This document shows positions 3,162-30,134 of a stretch of 64,000 nt of DNA, in pieces. Within the stretch, counting starts at the first letter, position 1, and the number at the start of each line of letters is the position of its first letter. A program made the translations under genes and the position numbers. The stretch lies in the NCBI RefSeq assembly GCF_000483125.1, contig NZ_KI519553.1, positions 345,124-409,123 of the forward strand, written 5' to 3'. Origin of the DNA: Atopobium fossor DSM 15642. Its GTDB lineage: Bacteria > Actinomycetota > Coriobacteriia > Coriobacteriales > Atopobiaceae. The notes beneath the pieces are model-generated. The model was not told where the DNA came from, searched no databases, and saw only the letters and a list, made by a program, of their open reading frames with translations.

Positions 3162-3172
3162 AGAGCAAAATA

Positions 3173-3254
3173 AAAGGGGGCTTGCGTACGCAGGCTGAGA
3201 GTAAACCCATTACGGTTTTGACCTTACCTGATCTGGATAATGCCAGCGTAGGAA
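3173..3254 (+). ncRNA. TPP (thi-box) riboswitch
   Basis: The conserved core of the thiamine pyrophosphate aptamer is present: CTGAGA at 3195-3200, ACCC at 3205-3208, then ACCTGATCTGGATAATGCC (3226-3244) and AGCGTAGGAA (3245-3254). These are the pyrimidine- and pyrophosphate-sensing arms in normal order and spacing. It precedes a terminator hairpin and a thiXYZ-type importer, so TPP binding is expected to switch the operon off. Confidence 0.95.
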
Positions 3255-3270
3255 CTAGAGTACTTATTAA

Positions 3271-3298
3271 GTCCTTTCGCATGGCGAAAGGACTTTTT
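3271..3298 (+). terminator. Riboswitch expression-platform terminator
   Basis: A perfect 10-bp stem (GTCCTTTCGC 3271-3280 with GCGAAAGGAC 3284-3293), a 3-base ATG loop and a run of five T. This is an intrinsic terminator directly after the TPP aptamer. Its 3' arm contains AAAGGA (3287-3292), the only Shine-Dalgarno-like sequence before the permease start at 3305, so the same hairpin could also hide the ribosome binding site. Confidence 0.9.
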
Positions 3299-22653: not shown

Positions 22654-23730
22654 TTAGCATCCCTGTTTCTTGAGCCAGATGCGTGGTGACATACCTGTCT
22701 GTTTGACAAAAATCATTCGTACCGATGCTGCGCTAGCATAGCCAAGTTCATCTGCAATTTGATTCAGCGTTTTTCCGCACAGAAGACTTTCTTCTATTTT
22801 ATGCATACGCAAATGAGTAAGCACATCACCAATACTTTGACCTTGCTCTTCCTTAAATTGCGTGCAAAGTGTAGTGCGTCCCACATGGAAAATACGAGCA
22901 AGTTCATCAAGCGTCGGTGGGCAAGAAAGAGAACTCTGCAGCAATGCAATGATGGCTTGCGAGAACTGTTTTCTTTTATAAGATGGAGATGTTACTGCTT
23001 GAACTGGTCCAGCGCCAGTACAAGAGTTGTCGAACTTACTTTTTGCAATTAGTCCCAGTATTTTGAGCATTTGTGCATAGGTATCTACCTGTGATGTTTT
23101 CTGGCAAAGATTACTTGGTAATAGTTTTGCAAAAAGATCAATAAGCTGGTTATTATCATTAAAACCTAAAGGTCTATCAATAAGTGTGTATGCTGCCTCA
23201 TGTAGCTCGCTAAACTGCTGAGCAAGCTCACGCAAGAGCGACATGGTAAGACATACCGTTGCGCTTGAATAAACGGTTCCCGCTTTAATCTCAAATCGAT
23301 AGGTTCCCGCAGGATAGGGAAAAGAAACCGTAACTTGCGGAGCATGCTGAGCTATAGTCTCAAAAGCACCTGTATCAATATGCAGGTAGGGAGGCTGAAG
23401 ACCTGCCTGTTTCCAAATATCATTCATGAGTGCAAGCTCCTGCATTTGCATGGTGCCAATGCAAACAAAGTCTTCAATAGGTTTCTCTTCCAGGGAAAAA
23501 TCTTCAAGTGCAAGCCAACTCATGCGAGAGACAAGACAGCCCTCAAAAGGAACATACCACCAATACCATCCGCGTGCCTGTGTTGTATTCACGCGAAAGA
23601 CCTTACCAACACCTGTCCACTTGTATTCCGGATAGGCTTTTATCTACTCCATTTGCGGCATAATTTGCGAACGCATAGTGGGAGAAATATGAGAAAAAGC
23701 AGCGTAAAATGCCTGCTCTGCATGAGTCAT
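22654..23730 (-). pseudogene. AraC family regulator interrupted by in-frame TAG
   Basis: From the ATG at 23730, which has a perfect ribosome binding site (AAAAAGGAGATAT), the frame reads 28 residues (MTHAEQAFYAAFSH through PQME), meets TAG at 23644-23646, and continues in the same frame for 329 codons to 22654. The downstream part carries a sensor domain and a C-terminal AraC DNA-binding domain with two helix-turn-helix units (LDELARIFHVGRTTLCTQFK and LNQIADELGYASAASVRMIF). Sequence just after the stop (IKAYPEYKWTGVGKVF) is clearly still protein-like. Either the gene is inactivated, the stop is a strain or sequencing variant, or a shorter protein starts at GTG 23592 without a ribosome binding site. 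Divergent from the transporter operon it probably controls. Confidence 0.85.
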
Positions 23731-23850
23731 ATATCTCCTTTTTGTAGTCTGCTACAAGCTTCTATTTGCATTCCATAACTGTTGCAATTGTTCGTGCAAC
23801 ATAAAAATCGTTCGCGTTTACCTTATTTCAAGACAAGCCATATATATCAC

Positions 23851-23866
23851 TAGTTAACCTTAACTA
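23851..23866. promoter_or_regulatory. Dyad operator candidate before the ABC/ECF operon
   Basis: TAGTTAA-CC-TTAACTA, a perfect dyad with 7-base arms, in the gap between the AraC gene and the operon. A possible promoter overlaps it: TTAACC (23854-23859), 17 bases, GATTAT (23877-23882). The sequence loosely resembles metal-dependent DtxR/IdeR boxes. The same TAGTTAACC word occurs in the LPXTG promoter dyad. Regulator identity is inference. Confidence 0.5.
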
Positions 23867-23904
23867 ACAAATATGAGATTATTTTAGCATAGAAGGAGGA
23901 AGTC

Positions 23905-25662
23905 TTGGATCTTTACAAGAGGATCTTTGCCTATGTACCAGAGAAAAAAGCTTATGGCGTGTTAGCTGTGTTCTGCTCGGTATGTTCGGCAGTGCTTACC
24001 TGCGCAGGCTATTTTGTCATCTATCAGGTACTCAGAGAAATATTGATGGCTAACAACCTGGTCGTAGCACAACAGCTCTCCATCCTTGCTATTGTGCTTT
24101 TAACAGCAGGAGCTTTGCTCTATCTCTTGGCAAGCATATTTTCTCATATACTGGGCTTTAGGCTCGAAACCAACCTACACAAGCGTGGTATAGATGGTAT
24201 TGTACAGGCTTCATTTCGCTTTTTTGACACTAATGAGTCGGGCATTATTCGTAAGACCATAGACGATAATGCTGGCATGACACATTCGGCTGTAGCCCAT
24301 ATGATCCCAGATTTAGGGCAGGCATTTGTGACACCTATTCTAGTGATTATCCTCAGCTTTTTTGTAAGTCTAAGAGTAGGTATTGCGGTGGTTGTCACGG
24401 TGTTTATTGGCGTAGTCATCATGTCAAAAATGATGGGCGGAGAAACCTCCTTTATGCAACAGTACCAAGATGCCCTCAAGCGCATGAGTGGCGAGACGGT
24501 TGAATATGTTCGTGGTATTCAAGTCATTAAGATTTTTAAGGCGGATGTTAATTCGTTTAAGGCATTGCATGAAGCCATTACCTCATATGCGCAAGGCGTA
24601 TATTCCTATTCAAAGAGTTGTAAGGTTCCTTACGTTACCTACCAGTGGATCTTTTTAGGCGCAGCAGCTCTTCTAGTCATACCAATCGCTCTTATGCTCA
24701 ATACCATCACCGAACCTCATTTCTTTATGATTGAGCTTTTGATGTACATATTTCTTCTTGGCGTAGTGTATGTATGTCTGATGCGTGTTATGTACTCCAC
24801 ACAACATATATTTGAGGCAAAATATGCCGTAGATAGCCTAGAAAAACTCTACGACGAAATGAACAAAGACAAGCTGCAGTTTGGAAATGAAACGAGCTTC
24901 GAGAACTTTGATATTGCTTTTGAGAATATGAGTTTTTCCTACGGAGACAAGAGTGTCTTTAAGAACTTTAATCTTAGTCTTGTTGCAGGTAAATCCTATG
25001 CACTCGTAGGTTCATCTGGCTCGGGTAAATCAACGCTTGCTAAACTGCTCAGTGGGTTTTATAAGGTAGATGATGGTGCGGTTACCATCGGCAAAAAACC
25101 GCTTTCTGCGTATAGCGAAGACGCCATCATTAAGGCTATATCGTTTGTTTTCCAAGATCCAAAGTTGTTCAAGATGTCCATCTATGACAATGTGGCACTT
25201 GCCAAAGCTGGGGCAACACATGACGAAGTCATGGCTGCGCTTATGAAAGCAGGGTGCGCCGATATTCTCGATAAATTCCCTGAACGTGAGAATACCCTTA
25301 TAGGCGCCAAAGGAGTGTATCTTTCCGGTGGAGAAAAACAACGTATTGCCATTGCGCGTGCGCTTCTCAAAGATGCACCTATTCTTGTTATGGATGAGGC
25401 ATCTGCTGCTATTGATGCAGATAACGAATATAAATTGCAAGAGTCGTTTAAGACGTTGATGCAGAACAAGACCACCATCATGATTGCCCATAGGCTCTCT
25501 AGCATTCAAAACGTAGATGAGATTCTTGTGCTAAAAGATGGTGAGATTGCCGAGCGTGGAAGCCACCTCGAGCTCTTGAAAAAACAAGGCGAATACAAAG
25601 CTCTTCTCGATATGTACTACAGCGCAAATGATTGGAGACTGAGCTATGATTCAGCACTTTAA
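23905..25662 (+). CDS. ABC half-transporter, ATPase-permease fusion (YbtP/IrtA-like)
   Basis: 585 residues. Residues 1-310 are a six-helix exporter-fold membrane domain; 330-585 are the ATPase, with Walker A GSSGSGKST, signature LSGGEKQR, Walker B ILVMDEASAAID and H-loop IAHR. It pairs with the next gene to form a heterodimer. In this family, pairs such as YbtPQ and IrtAB import iron-siderophore complexes despite the exporter fold. The neighbourhood (AraC regulator, ECF module) matches that theme, but export cannot be excluded. TTG start at 23905 with AGAAGGAGGA (23891-23900). Confidence 0.88.
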   Translation: MDLYKRIFAYVPEKKAYGVLAVFCSVCSAVLTCAGYFVIYQVLREILMANNLVVAQQLSILAIVLLTAGALLYLLASIFSHILGFRLETNLHKRGIDGIVQASFRFFDTNESGIIRKTIDDNAGMTHSAVAHMIPDLGQAFVTPILVIILSFFVSLRVGIAVVVTVFIGVVIMSKMMGGETSFMQQYQDALKRMSGETVEYVRGIQVIKIFKADVNSFKALHEAITSYAQGVYSYSKSCKVPYVTYQWIFLGAAALLVIPIALMLNTITEPHFFMIELLMYIFLLGVVYVCLMRVMYSTQHIFEAKYAVDSLEKLYDEMNKDKLQFGNETSFENFDIAFENMSFSYGDKSVFKNFNLSLVAGKSYALVGSSGSGKSTLAKLLSGFYKVDDGAVTIGKKPLSAYSEDAIIKAISFVFQDPKLFKMSIYDNVALAKAGATHDEVMAALMKAGCADILDKFPERENTLIGAKGVYLSGGEKQRIAIARALLKDAPILVMDEASAAIDADNEYKLQESFKTLMQNKTTIMIAHRLSSIQNVDEILVLKDGEIAERGSHLELLKKQGEYKALLDMYYSANDWRLSYDSAL

Positions 25663-27367
25663 GCGCAAGTTTCAGGTAACCGACGAGGGCGCTCGCGGAC
25701 TTTTGAAGGCTTCTTTTTCGAGTCTTTGCGTATACATTGTAAGCATGTCTCCCGTTATGCTTGTTATGCTCATTGGCGATATGCTCTTGTCGGGCAATAA
25801 GCACGAGAGCTGGTTGTATATTGCAAGTGCTGTGGTAACGCTTATAGCTCTTGCGATTACTCTTGCAATTGAATACGAAGGCACCTATAACGCAACTTAC
25901 AAAGAGAGCGCTCATTTGCGCATTGGTATTGCAAAGCGTCTTCAGAGTTTGCCACTCAGCTTCTTTTCTAAGCGCAACCTCTCTGATCTTTCGCAATCTA
26001 TCATGTCGGATGTGGAAGCTATCGAGCATGCTATGAGCCACTCTATCCCTAAGATTTATGCTATCTATTTCTTCCTGCCACTTCTTACCGTTATGCTCAT
26101 GGCTGGAAATGTATGGCTTGGTCTTGCAGTCATTGCTCCTAATGTATTACGTTTTTTGGTGTTGCCTTTGTACAGGCAACAGGTTGAGCGAGGCAATAAA
26201 AAATTCTATAAGGTATTGCGGGAGCAAAGCGAAAAATTCCAAGAAGTTATTGAACTTAATCAGGAGATTAAAGGCTTTAATTTGAGCCAAGAGATCAAGC
26301 GTAGTCTGTATGAAAAAATGGACTATGGTGAGCGCATTCACCTTCTGTCGGAGGTTGGCAATGTACAAGTTATGGGACTTTCTTCGCTCTTTTCATTTAT
26401 TAGTCTTGGCGTGGTGCTTGCCGTGGGTACGCAACTCTTGGTAACAGGTAGCATTAACGTGCTCTATCTGTTGGGATATATGCTTGCAGCCATCAAAGTT
26501 AAGGAAATTGTTGATATTTCCAACGAGTCTATGCTTGAAATATTATTTGCGGAGCCGCGTGTAGCAAAGCTTAAGGAGATTAATGAAACCGCTGTACAGG
26601 AAGGTGCAGAGGTTGAATTAAAGAACTTTGATGTTGAACTTACTCATGTTGGTTTTGCATACGATAAAGACACATCAGTTTTGAGTGATGTTTCATTTGC
26701 AGCAAAACAAGGGGAAGTAACCGCTCTTGTAGGTGCCTCTGGCTGCGGTAAAACAACGCTCCTCAAACTCATTTCTCGTCTCTATGATTATGATTTAGGA
26801 CATATTTGCATAGATGGCAAAGATATTAAGGGCATTTCGACCGATTCACTCTTCGATAAGACATCTATTGTTTTTCAGGATGTAACACTCTTTAATAGCA
26901 CAATTATGGAAAACATCCGTATTGGAAAACTGGATGCGACAGATGAAGAAGTGCGCCATGCAGCTCAGCTTGCTAATTGCATGGAATTTATCGACCGATT
27001 ACCCGACGGTTTTAACGCTACTATTGGTGAAAATGGAGCCGAACTTTCAGGTGGTGAACGTCAACGTCTTTCTATTGCCCGTGCATTTCTGAAGGATGCC
27101 CCTATTCTTATTTTGGACGAAATTGCAGCAAATCTTGATATAGAAAACGAGCGCAAAGTTCAAGAAAGTTTGAGCAAGCTTATCGAGAATAAAACTGTTG
27201 TGGTTATTTCTCATCGTTTGAAATCAGTGGAAACAGTGGACAAGATTGTAGTACTGGATGGTGGCAAGGTCGAAGCTGTGGGCACACATGCTGAGCTTCT
27301 AAAAACATCTTCTACCTATAAAAATCTTATTGAGAAATCTAAACTTGCCGAAAAGTTTGTGTACTAA
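25646..27367 (+). CDS. ABC half-transporter, ATPase-permease fusion (YbtQ/IrtB-like)
   Basis: 573 residues, partner of the previous protein. Six membrane helices (1-310), then the ATPase with Walker A GASGCGKTT, signature LSGGERQR, Walker B ILILDEIAANLD and H-loop ISHR. The Walker B tail I-A-A-N-L-D departs slightly from the usual T-S-A-L-D. The ATG overlaps the previous gene by 17 bases, with TTGGAGA upstream. The intimate overlap supports a heterodimer with balanced synthesis. Substrate unknown; a metal chelate is inferred from family and context. Confidence 0.88.
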   Translation: MIQHFKRKFQVTDEGARGLLKASFSSLCVYIVSMSPVMLVMLIGDMLLSGNKHESWLYIASAVVTLIALAITLAIEYEGTYNATYKESAHLRIGIAKRLQSLPLSFFSKRNLSDLSQSIMSDVEAIEHAMSHSIPKIYAIYFFLPLLTVMLMAGNVWLGLAVIAPNVLRFLVLPLYRQQVERGNKKFYKVLREQSEKFQEVIELNQEIKGFNLSQEIKRSLYEKMDYGERIHLLSEVGNVQVMGLSSLFSFISLGVVLAVGTQLLVTGSINVLYLLGYMLAAIKVKEIVDISNESMLEILFAEPRVAKLKEINETAVQEGAEVELKNFDVELTHVGFAYDKDTSVLSDVSFAAKQGEVTALVGASGCGKTTLLKLISRLYDYDLGHICIDGKDIKGISTDSLFDKTSIVFQDVTLFNSTIMENIRIGKLDATDEEVRHAAQLANCMEFIDRLPDGFNATIGENGAELSGGERQRLSIARAFLKDAPILILDEIAANLDIENERKVQESLSKLIENKTVVVISHRLKSVETVDKIVVLDGGKVEAVGTHAELLKTSSTYKNLIEKSKLAEKFVY

Positions 27368-27433
27368 ATAATTGCGCCTGCGCAGCTGTAGTTGTAGTTG
27401 CGCAGGTAGAGCATTCAAAGAACAGGAGTAGCT

Positions 27434-28018
27434 ATGAATACCGAAAAACTCAAAGTAAAAGATTTGGTAACCATAGGTGTATTTGCAGTTGTCTACTTTG
27501 TGGTGATGTTTTCCTTAGGCATGATAGGTATGGTACCCATCCTCTTTCTTATTTGGCCAACGCTTTTAGGTGTTGTTGCGGGCAGTATTGTTATGCTCTT
27601 TATGGCAAAGGTTCCTAAATCTTGGGCTTTGTTTATTTTTGGCATGATTGCTCCGCTTGCTATGTTTGTGGGAGGACATACTGTTGTTGTTCCTCTTTAC
27701 TCTTGCGTGGTAATGCTTATTGCAGAGTTTGTTCGTCGTGCAGGTGATTTTAAGAGCATGATGCATAATATTGCAGCTGCAGCAATCTTTAATGCGTGGT
27801 CATGCGGATCGCTCTTTCAGATATTTTTGGTACACGATAGGTATTTTGAGCTCACTGTTGCGCAGATGGGCGTAGAGTACGGTAATACGCTTGATAAGCT
27901 TATGAGCTATCCCACAATGGGACTTATTATTGTAGGCGCTCTTATAGGTGGGCTGATTGGCGGTTTTATTGGAAAAGCCCTGCTTAAAAAGCATTTTGAG
28001 AAAGCAGGTATTGTCTAA
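27434..28018 (+). CDS. ECF transporter S component (MptD / Trep_Strep family)
   Basis: 194 residues with about six hydrophobic segments, beginning KLKVKDLVTIGVFAVVYFVVMFSLGMIGMVPILFLIWP and ending in a glycine-rich helix (GLIIVGALIGGLIGGFIGKALLKKH). This is the pattern of the Trep_Strep (TIGR02185) family of putative substrate-capture (S) components of energy-coupling-factor importers. The S protein sets specificity and sits in the membrane without ATPase activity. Start ATG has AACAGGAGTAGCT. Its stop overlaps the T gene as TAATG. Substrate not known for the family; association with siderophore-type ABC pairs suggests a metal-chelate or tetrapyrrole ligand. Confidence 0.82.
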   Translation: MNTEKLKVKDLVTIGVFAVVYFVVMFSLGMIGMVPILFLIWPTLLGVVAGSIVMLFMAKVPKSWALFIFGMIAPLAMFVGGHTVVVPLYSCVVMLIAEFVRRAGDFKSMMHNIAAAAIFNAWSCGSLFQIFLVHDRYFELTVAQMGVEYGNTLDKLMSYPTMGLIIVGALIGGLIGGFIGKALLKKHFEKAGIV

Positions 28019-28731
28019 TGCAGCAGGATAGTTTCTCTGTTGCACAAGGGAACCGAGTACATTTTAATCCAAATCCCTTAAGTAAACTTGCTGTTGTACT
28101 TGCTGTGGGTGTAACTATCTTGCATCCAATGCCAGATTGGGTGGGCTTGGCCATGGTATTGGTACTTGCCTTGTTTTGTATGCTTTCGGGATTCTTTATT
28201 ACGGGACTTAAAGCCTCTCTGTTCTATCTGCTACTTTGTATGGTTCCGTCAATTGACGGAGTCTCGGCTTTTCCTGCGCCTCTTAAAATGTTTATCTCGT
28301 TTTTCTTAATAGTTCGCATGTTTTATCTGCCTATATTTGCAGGAACATATTTGGTAAAAACATCAGATGTGGGCAGTATTTTGTCATCTATGGATGCGAT
28401 TCATACCCCTAAATCTATTTCCATTCCTATAGCAGTTATGTTTCGTTTCTTTCCTTCGTTTCATGAGGAGAGACGCAATATTAAGCTTGCTATGAAAGTG
28501 CGGGGGATAACGTTCAAAAACCCTATTGCCTATGCAGAGTATGTGGCAGTTCCTCTTCTTATTATGTGCTCCACTATTGCCGATGATATTGCCAAAGCTG
28601 CGGAGGTCAAATGTATCGAAAATCCCGTGCCGTCCATACGCTATACCGAAGTAAAGTTTCGATTGATTGATGTTGTGTTTCTTGGCATTATGGGTGTTTT
28701 GCTTGTGGGAGGTCTCACGTGGTTGAGATAA
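28018..28731 (+). CDS. ECF transporter transmembrane component T
   Basis: 237 residues, EcfT/CbiQ family. About four to five membrane helices are followed by the cytoplasmic coupling region. The A-R-G-like motifs that contact the ATPases are recognisable as AMKVRGITFKNP and AAEVKCIE (the second is altered from the usual A-R-G). An early LSKLAVVLAVGVTIL stretch is typical. The start overlaps the S gene by one base and its end overlaps the ATPase gene by 13 bases, so S, T and A are translationally linked. Confidence 0.85.
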   Translation: MQQDSFSVAQGNRVHFNPNPLSKLAVVLAVGVTILHPMPDWVGLAMVLVLALFCMLSGFFITGLKASLFYLLLCMVPSIDGVSAFPAPLKMFISFFLIVRMFYLPIFAGTYLVKTSDVGSILSSMDAIHTPKSISIPIAVMFRFFPSFHEERRNIKLAMKVRGITFKNPIAYAEYVAVPLLIMCSTIADDIAKAAEVKCIENPVPSIRYTEVKFRLIDVVFLGIMGVLLVGGLTWLR

Positions 28732-30134
28732 AAAATCTTACTATCTCATATGGCGAAGGAGCAGCTTGCTCAAGCATTCTTAAAGATATTTCGCTCACAA
28801 TCCATGATGGTGAGTGCGCAGTTTTTACGGGCAGAAGCGGTTCGGGAAAGACTTCGCTCATCAACGCCATAAACGGACTTGGTTCTCGTTATGATGGAGC
28901 GCACTTAGAAGGGGATATTCTTGTTGATGGACAGCAGATACATAAGCTTGAAGTCTTTGAAATTGCACAGGTTATCTCCAATGTATTTCAAAATCCCAAG
29001 ACCTATTTCTTTAATGTAAACACTACGCTTGAGTTGCTCTTTTATTTAGAAAACACAGGAGTTTCTCGTGCCGAAATGGATAGGCGCCTCAAAGATATGT
29101 TGACGCTGTTTCCTATAGAACATTTGCTCGATCGTAATATTTTTCAGTTGTCAGGCGGAGAAAAGCAAATCCTTTGTGTTGCCTCGTGCTATATTGCGGG
29201 TACAGGTATCATTTTGCTTGATGAGCCATCATCTAATTTGGATGCACAGTATATTGCTTTGCTTCACAACATGCTTGCTTGTTTAAAAGAACGCGGTATT
29301 TCACTGATACTTTCCGAGCATCGTTTGTATTACCTTATGGATATTGTGGATAGGTTTTTTGTGGTAGGGAATGGTTCTGTTACAGAATACCCCATACAAG
29401 ATGTGCAGTTGTGGTCATGTGAACAACGAAGTGCCTTGGGACTGCGCGACGTACAAAAAACGCCGCTTGCAGTGCCCATGATACAAGTAAAAGAATCGTG
29501 TGCAAATCAAATACATAGTGGCTTGTACTTACAGTCTCTCTTTGTAGATTTTCCTGGACAATCAGCAGGACTAAGAGTGGAACATACTACGTTTGAGATG
29601 GGTAACATTTATGGCATTGTTGGACACAATGGCTGCGGAAAGTCGAGCTTTGTGCGCGCTATGATTGGTGTGAATAAACATGCGCGTGGAGAAATTTTCC
29701 TAGATAAAAAGAAGTTTTCTGCAAAAAAGCGTCTTAATGCTTCATCGCTGGTTATGCAAGATGTTAACCATCAGCTCTTTAGCGAGGACGTAGAAAGTGA
29801 AGTTTGTCTTGGCGTGAAAAACTATGATTTGCAGGAACAAGAGCAGCTGCTTAAAAATCTTTCACTGTATGAGTTGCGCGAACGCCATCCCTTCAGCTTG
29901 TCTGGTGGGCAAAAACAGCGTGTAGTTATTGCGGCTACACTCTTTAAGGGTTCTCGCTTCATCTATTTTGATGAGCCTACTTCAGGTATGGACTATGAGA
30001 ATATGCTGAGTATTTCTCGTCTTATTAAGGCAGCATCTCAAACGAATAACATTATCTTTATTGTGTCTCATGATGTGGAGTTCCTCAATGAGACAGTCGA
30101 TGCTGTTATAAACCTAGAGTGCTATCGCGTATAA
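28719..30134 (+). CDS. ECF transporter double ATPase (A components fused)
   Basis: 471 residues with two complete ABC ATPase domains in one chain. First: Walker A TGRSGSGKTS, signature LSGGEKQ, Walker B GIILLDEPSSNLD, H-loop SEHR. Second: Walker A GHNGCGKSS, signature LSGGQKQR, Walker B FIYFDEPTSGMD, H-loop VSHD. Most ECF systems use separate EcfA1 and EcfA2; here both are fused, as in dedicated CbiO-like or YkoD-like pumps. GTG start at 28719 with GGGAGGT upstream. Last gene of the operon. Confidence 0.9.
   Translation: MVEIKNLTISYGEGAACSSILKDISLTIHDGECAVFTGRSGSGKTSLINAINGLGSRYDGAHLEGDILVDGQQIHKLEVFEIAQVISNVFQNPKTYFFNVNTTLELLFYLENTGVSRAEMDRRLKDMLTLFPIEHLLDRNIFQLSGGEKQILCVASCYIAGTGIILLDEPSSNLDAQYIALLHNMLACLKERGISLILSEHRLYYLMDIVDRFFVVGNGSVTEYPIQDVQLWSCEQRSALGLRDVQKTPLAVPMIQVKESCANQIHSGLYLQSLFVDFPGQSAGLRVEHTTFEMGNIYGIVGHNGCGKSSFVRAMIGVNKHARGEIFLDKKKFSAKKRLNASSLVMQDVNHQLFSEDVESEVCLGVKNYDLQEQEQLLKNLSLYELRERHPFSLSGGQKQRVVIAATLFKGSRFIYFDEPTSGMDYENMLSISRLIKAASQTNNIIFIVSHDVEFLNETVDAVINLECYRV

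Follow-up and report, generated by a model that had tools for sequence, protein, structure and literature searches.

A probable recent nonsense allele of an AraC-type regulator gene, with an intact paralogue, beside an importer operon of Atopobium fossor

In-frame stop codons in bacterial genes under apparent purifying selection are widespread and short-lived, a TAG/CAG case being among those described (Belinky et al. 2021, PMC7918605). Here we describe an amber-interrupted regulator gene in a 64,000-nucleotide stretch of Atopobium fossor DSM 15642 (hereafter the window; G000:C1:345124-409123), whose 1.65-Mb genome is assembled in 4 contigs at 97.55% completeness. With other AraC/XylS regulators the window regulator shares the C-terminal double helix-turn-helix (PF12833 and PF00165), and it differs from them in its N-terminal half, which falls in a PQxxQ-bearing Coriobacteriia subfamily without a Pfam or NCBIfam family. 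The neighboring importer resembles the MptD/Trep_Strep systems that combine ECF and ABC half-transporter genes: a TIGR02185 S component, a CbiQ-like T component, a fused ATPase and two half-transporters are encoded in one operon. Whereas the operon of the sister species is led by a TetR-like gene, that of the window has a divergent AraC gene.

The regulator gene (Table 1) runs from an ATG at 23730-23728 to a terminal TAA at 22656-22654. An earlier note on this DNA, made from its letters, had described a strong ribosome-binding site with the ATG, a TAG at codon 29 and 329 open codons beyond it, all of which we recovered on re-reading the sequence; the Shine-Dalgarno duplex energy at the ATG is -8.7 kcal/mol, the 1% quantile of the background being -8.8. 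The same note spoke of a sensor and a DNA-binding domain. The latter stands, as the C-terminus matches both PF12833 (E=3e-16, 59.9 bits; cut-off 33.6) and PF00165 (37.8 bits; cut-off 26.6) and thereby places the product in the AraC/XylS type, while the supposed sensor half matches no Pfam or NCBIfam model and is defined by homology inside its Coriobacteriia subfamily alone. A single-sequence AlphaFold model of the read-through protein has a mean pLDDT of 39 and is confident in the last ~55 residues only.

Table 1. Features of the regulator gene, the intergenic region and the divergent importer operon (window coordinates)
Feature	Position	Strand	Remark
AraC-type regulator gene with one amber	22654..23730	-	28 codons + TAG + 329 codons + TAA
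Amber TAG, codon 29	23644..23646	-	CAG (Gln, PQxxQ motif) in paralogue and 30/30 homologues
Ribosome-binding site AAGGAG of ATG 23730	23735..23740	-	4 bases 5' of ATG
AraC helix-turn-helix domain PF12833	22669..22902	-	residues ~277-354
GTG, candidate restart, codon 47	23590..23592	-	weak Shine-Dalgarno; start of no homologue
Operator-like direct repeat GAACGATT-N12-GAACAATT, period 20	23786..23813	-	exact twice in genome
TTAGTTAAGGTTAACTAG element	23850..23867	-	resembles same-place elements in paralogue and several family loci
ABC half-transporter 1, divergent	23905..25662	+	TTG start, intact
ABC half-transporter 2	25646..27367	+	intact
ECF S component, MptD/Trep_Strep family	27434..28018	+	intact
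ECF transmembrane component, CbiQ-like	28018..28731	+
Fused double ECF ATPase	28719..30134	+

An intact paralogue of 357 residues is encoded at C2:320863-321933 of the same genome. Its protein is 59% identical to the window copy and the two align without gaps from the homologous ATG through codon 46, across the stop; the matches number 16 of 28 before the stop and 14 of 17 in codons 30-46. This agreement, and the match of the frame across the stop to a class-wide family, go beyond chance. Family searches, with the paralogue pair as query and then with a ten-sequence alignment, recovered full-length relatives in the family and the class; scans of the plasmid collection, viral contigs and genome contigs gave no relatives, and the genome search did yield them. 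The resulting 30 full-length loci from Coriobacteriia genomes (29 outside the source genome plus the C2 paralogue) include many from one genus, and 8 representatives share less than 75% identity with one another. Codon 29 of the paralogue is CAG, and glutamine occupies this position in 30/30 of the homologues, encoded by CAG each time, inside a PQxxQ motif whose P25, Q26 and Q29 do not vary across the ten-sequence alignment. The frame is open throughout in all of these, placing the window stop inside a homologue-continuous frame. A TAG flagged as internal in one further homologue (L005, from G018) proved to be the normal terminal stop of that gene. The earlier note had predicted TGG or CAG at this codon and a recent point change in a real gene, and the uniform CAG agrees with both: the stop is one C-to-T transition, read on the coding strand, in an invariant glutamine codon. 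The ancestral codon can be taken as known with near certainty.

The conservation pattern of the gene further suggests that the stop is recent. Among the family-conserved columns the window copy departs from 14, of which 12 are common to the paralogue, leaving the stop and the mild Y88F as the departures specific to it; because the stop is thus, besides Y88F, the sole conserved position altered in the window copy alone, it is probably young. Over the 328 codons after the stop the two copies differ at 96, 71 and 188 first, second and third codon positions, as is typical of a gene that has been preserved as coding for a long time. Roughly 4.3% of random substitutions in the gene would create a stop, and ~380 nucleotide differences separate the copies; by our estimate several stops would be expected on a long-unconstrained branch, and one is seen. 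The presence of one stop and no frameshift therefore argues for constraint during most of the time since duplication, although purifying selection before the mutation is inseparable here from selection after it. In relative-rate tests the unique changes of window copy and paralogue stood at 22:8, 25:11 and 21:7 against three nearer outgroups (p 0.013-0.029; the outgroups are mutually related and the p values not independent), and at 12:17, with no excess in the window copy, against a fourth, more distant one. Such an excess is as expected for a dispensable duplicate and agrees with either a relaxation of constraint or a new role; the faster evolution of the window copy may mark a new function instead of dispensability.

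The importer operon (23905-30134) is intact and divergent from the window regulator. The C2 paralogue is divergent from an ABC half-transporter pair of its own, and the relatives at L072, L073, L004 and L005 are likewise divergent from an ABC half-transporter, which suggests that the C2 copy probably retains the ancestral context, the importer operon having recruited the window copy. In a sister species from the same genus (G001) there is an orthologous importer operon (L097:3213-9981), its first gene 65% identical, which is led by a co-directional gene, called TetR-like from its sequence alone, in place of the divergent AraC gene. An orthologue of the window AraC gene was not found in this species, and the TetR-like gene had no match in the source genome in a search run without a positive control. 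The sister species also has, at L098:683-13453, a second ECF operon that is laid out in the same way and has an AraC-like gene and an ABC pair of its own; next to it lies a further ABC pair, at whose head stands a TetR-like gene. The AraC subfamily itself is Coriobacteriia-wide, unnamed and marked by the invariant PQxxQ, and is divergent from ABC half-transporters in the loci inspected. Elsewhere in the window (3164-3271) lies a TPP riboswitch scoring 56.7 bits, just above the gathering score of 54.3.

The intergenic region holds an operator-like direct repeat. Exact matches to GAACGATT-N12-GAACAATT occur at only 2 sites in the genome, one before each paralogue, the next-best site having one mismatch. 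From the end of the repeat to the divergent transporter start there are 91 bp at both loci, whereas the AraC start is 55 bp away in the window and 10 bp at C2. The recognition-helix segments of the two proteins are similar, with 82% identity in the HTH1 region and 73% in the HTH2 region. That both regulators read the same putative operator would be the simplest mechanism, and given the shared repeat before both genes some of the lost regulator's work could fall to the intact paralogue. The earlier expectation that regulator loss would leave the importer constitutively on or off is therefore complicated by a paralogue with the same operator-like repeat, and stands unproven. Among upstream regions of AraC genes of the subfamily (L103-L108, L110, L121, L129, L130 and the two copies here), 5 of 11 representatives (window and C2 included) show GRACGA as a direct repeat with a period of 20-21 just upstream, versus 0.5% of shuffles, and many have a GTTARC-like element. 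A strict class-wide operator pattern occurs in only 3 of 9 family representatives outside the source genome, so that its wider conservation is no more than a lead.

Taken together, we consider it likely that we see a nonsense allele, recent and near-null, in an AraC-type regulator gene that is a fast-evolving duplicate. The C-to-T transition turned the invariant PQxxQ glutamine codon into TAG, and translation from the normal start would yield a peptide of 28 residues, with regulator made in small amounts or not at all. All the same, the importer genes are intact, and their divergent promoter region keeps a putative operator with half-sites identical to those of the paralogue. With the window copy lost, the operon would be left to the C2 paralogue, which probably exerts some cross-control, or without specific control, its expression drifting to an unregulated level. 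The stop, its ancestral codon, the intact paralogue, the shared operator-like repeat and the lack of an amber-suppressor tRNA in the assembly are observed, while loss of function, autoregulation and cross-regulation are what we infer.

A sequencing or assembly artefact or a sample polymorphism, the true codon being CAG, is unlikely. A lone change in a codon that is elsewhere invariant, with the rest of the gene intact and seen in one assembly of one strain of the species, might be a mistake or a variant present in a minority of the sample; against this stand the 4 contigs and 97.55% completeness of the assembly, and the fact that single substitutions are not what assemblies most often get wrong.

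We regard as quite unlikely the proposal that selection keeps the amber as an expression brake, with rare glutamine insertion or restart giving trace or shortened regulator and the operon left to the paralogue. If true, a single stop codon would put two transporter loci under one regulator through a shared operator.

Very unlikely, in our view, is reinitiation at GTG 23592, which would produce an N-terminally shortened regulator, perhaps with an altered response to the inducer. This codon lies ~50 bases past the stop with an AAGG at suitable spacing on its 5' side, and the DNA-binding domain is intact 3' of it. However, its Shine-Dalgarno is weak (-4.3 versus -8.7 kcal/mol at the ATG), the shortened protein would lose both the PQxxQ motif found in all homologues and the paralogue-like segment of codons 30-46, and a start at this position is used in 0 of the 30 homologues. 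A mis-set start, with the gene beginning at 23592, is rejected: relatives that all start there would have spoken for it, and every homologue extends upstream through PQxxQ.

It is highly improbable that a near-cognate tRNA-Gln rarely decodes the amber, giving trace full-length regulator at a level lowered by the stop. The widespread, short-lived in-frame stops of PMC7918605, with their TAG/CAG case, would be compatible with it, as would the tRNA-Gln(CUG) present in the genome and the lack of further damage downstream of the stop. Nonetheless, the stop occurs in no relative, and therefore nothing indicates that the amber is being retained. The suppressor tRNA that the earlier note offered as an alternative did not materialize: an RF00005 search of the genome, with ARAGORN run on all 45 tRNAs recovered, showed a CUA anticodon in 0/45. 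RF1 is present, the search of the 97.55% complete genome gave no match to PylS, the pyrrolysine synthetase, and in the window TAG serves as a normal terminator, closing 10 of its 45 long frames. Thus, the genome search revealed neither a recoding system for the stop nor an amber-reading tRNA, so that readthrough by a dedicated system is unlikely and recoding of TAG was rejected.

If the likely reading as a nonsense allele holds, the locus offers a clean case of regulator loss after duplication, in which the ancestral codon, an intact twin, a shared operator-like site and an intact target operon can all be named, and it lends itself to a simple test of whether control of a transporter operon passes to a paralogue once the local regulator is lost. 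The allele itself is of an ordinary mutational type, unusually well documented by its relatives. It is like the in-frame nonsense alleles of Belinky et al. (2021, PMC7918605) in being one CAG-to-TAG change in an otherwise intact gene and apparently young. Unlike those cases, it comes from one genome, in which an undamaged paralogue also has the operator-like site.
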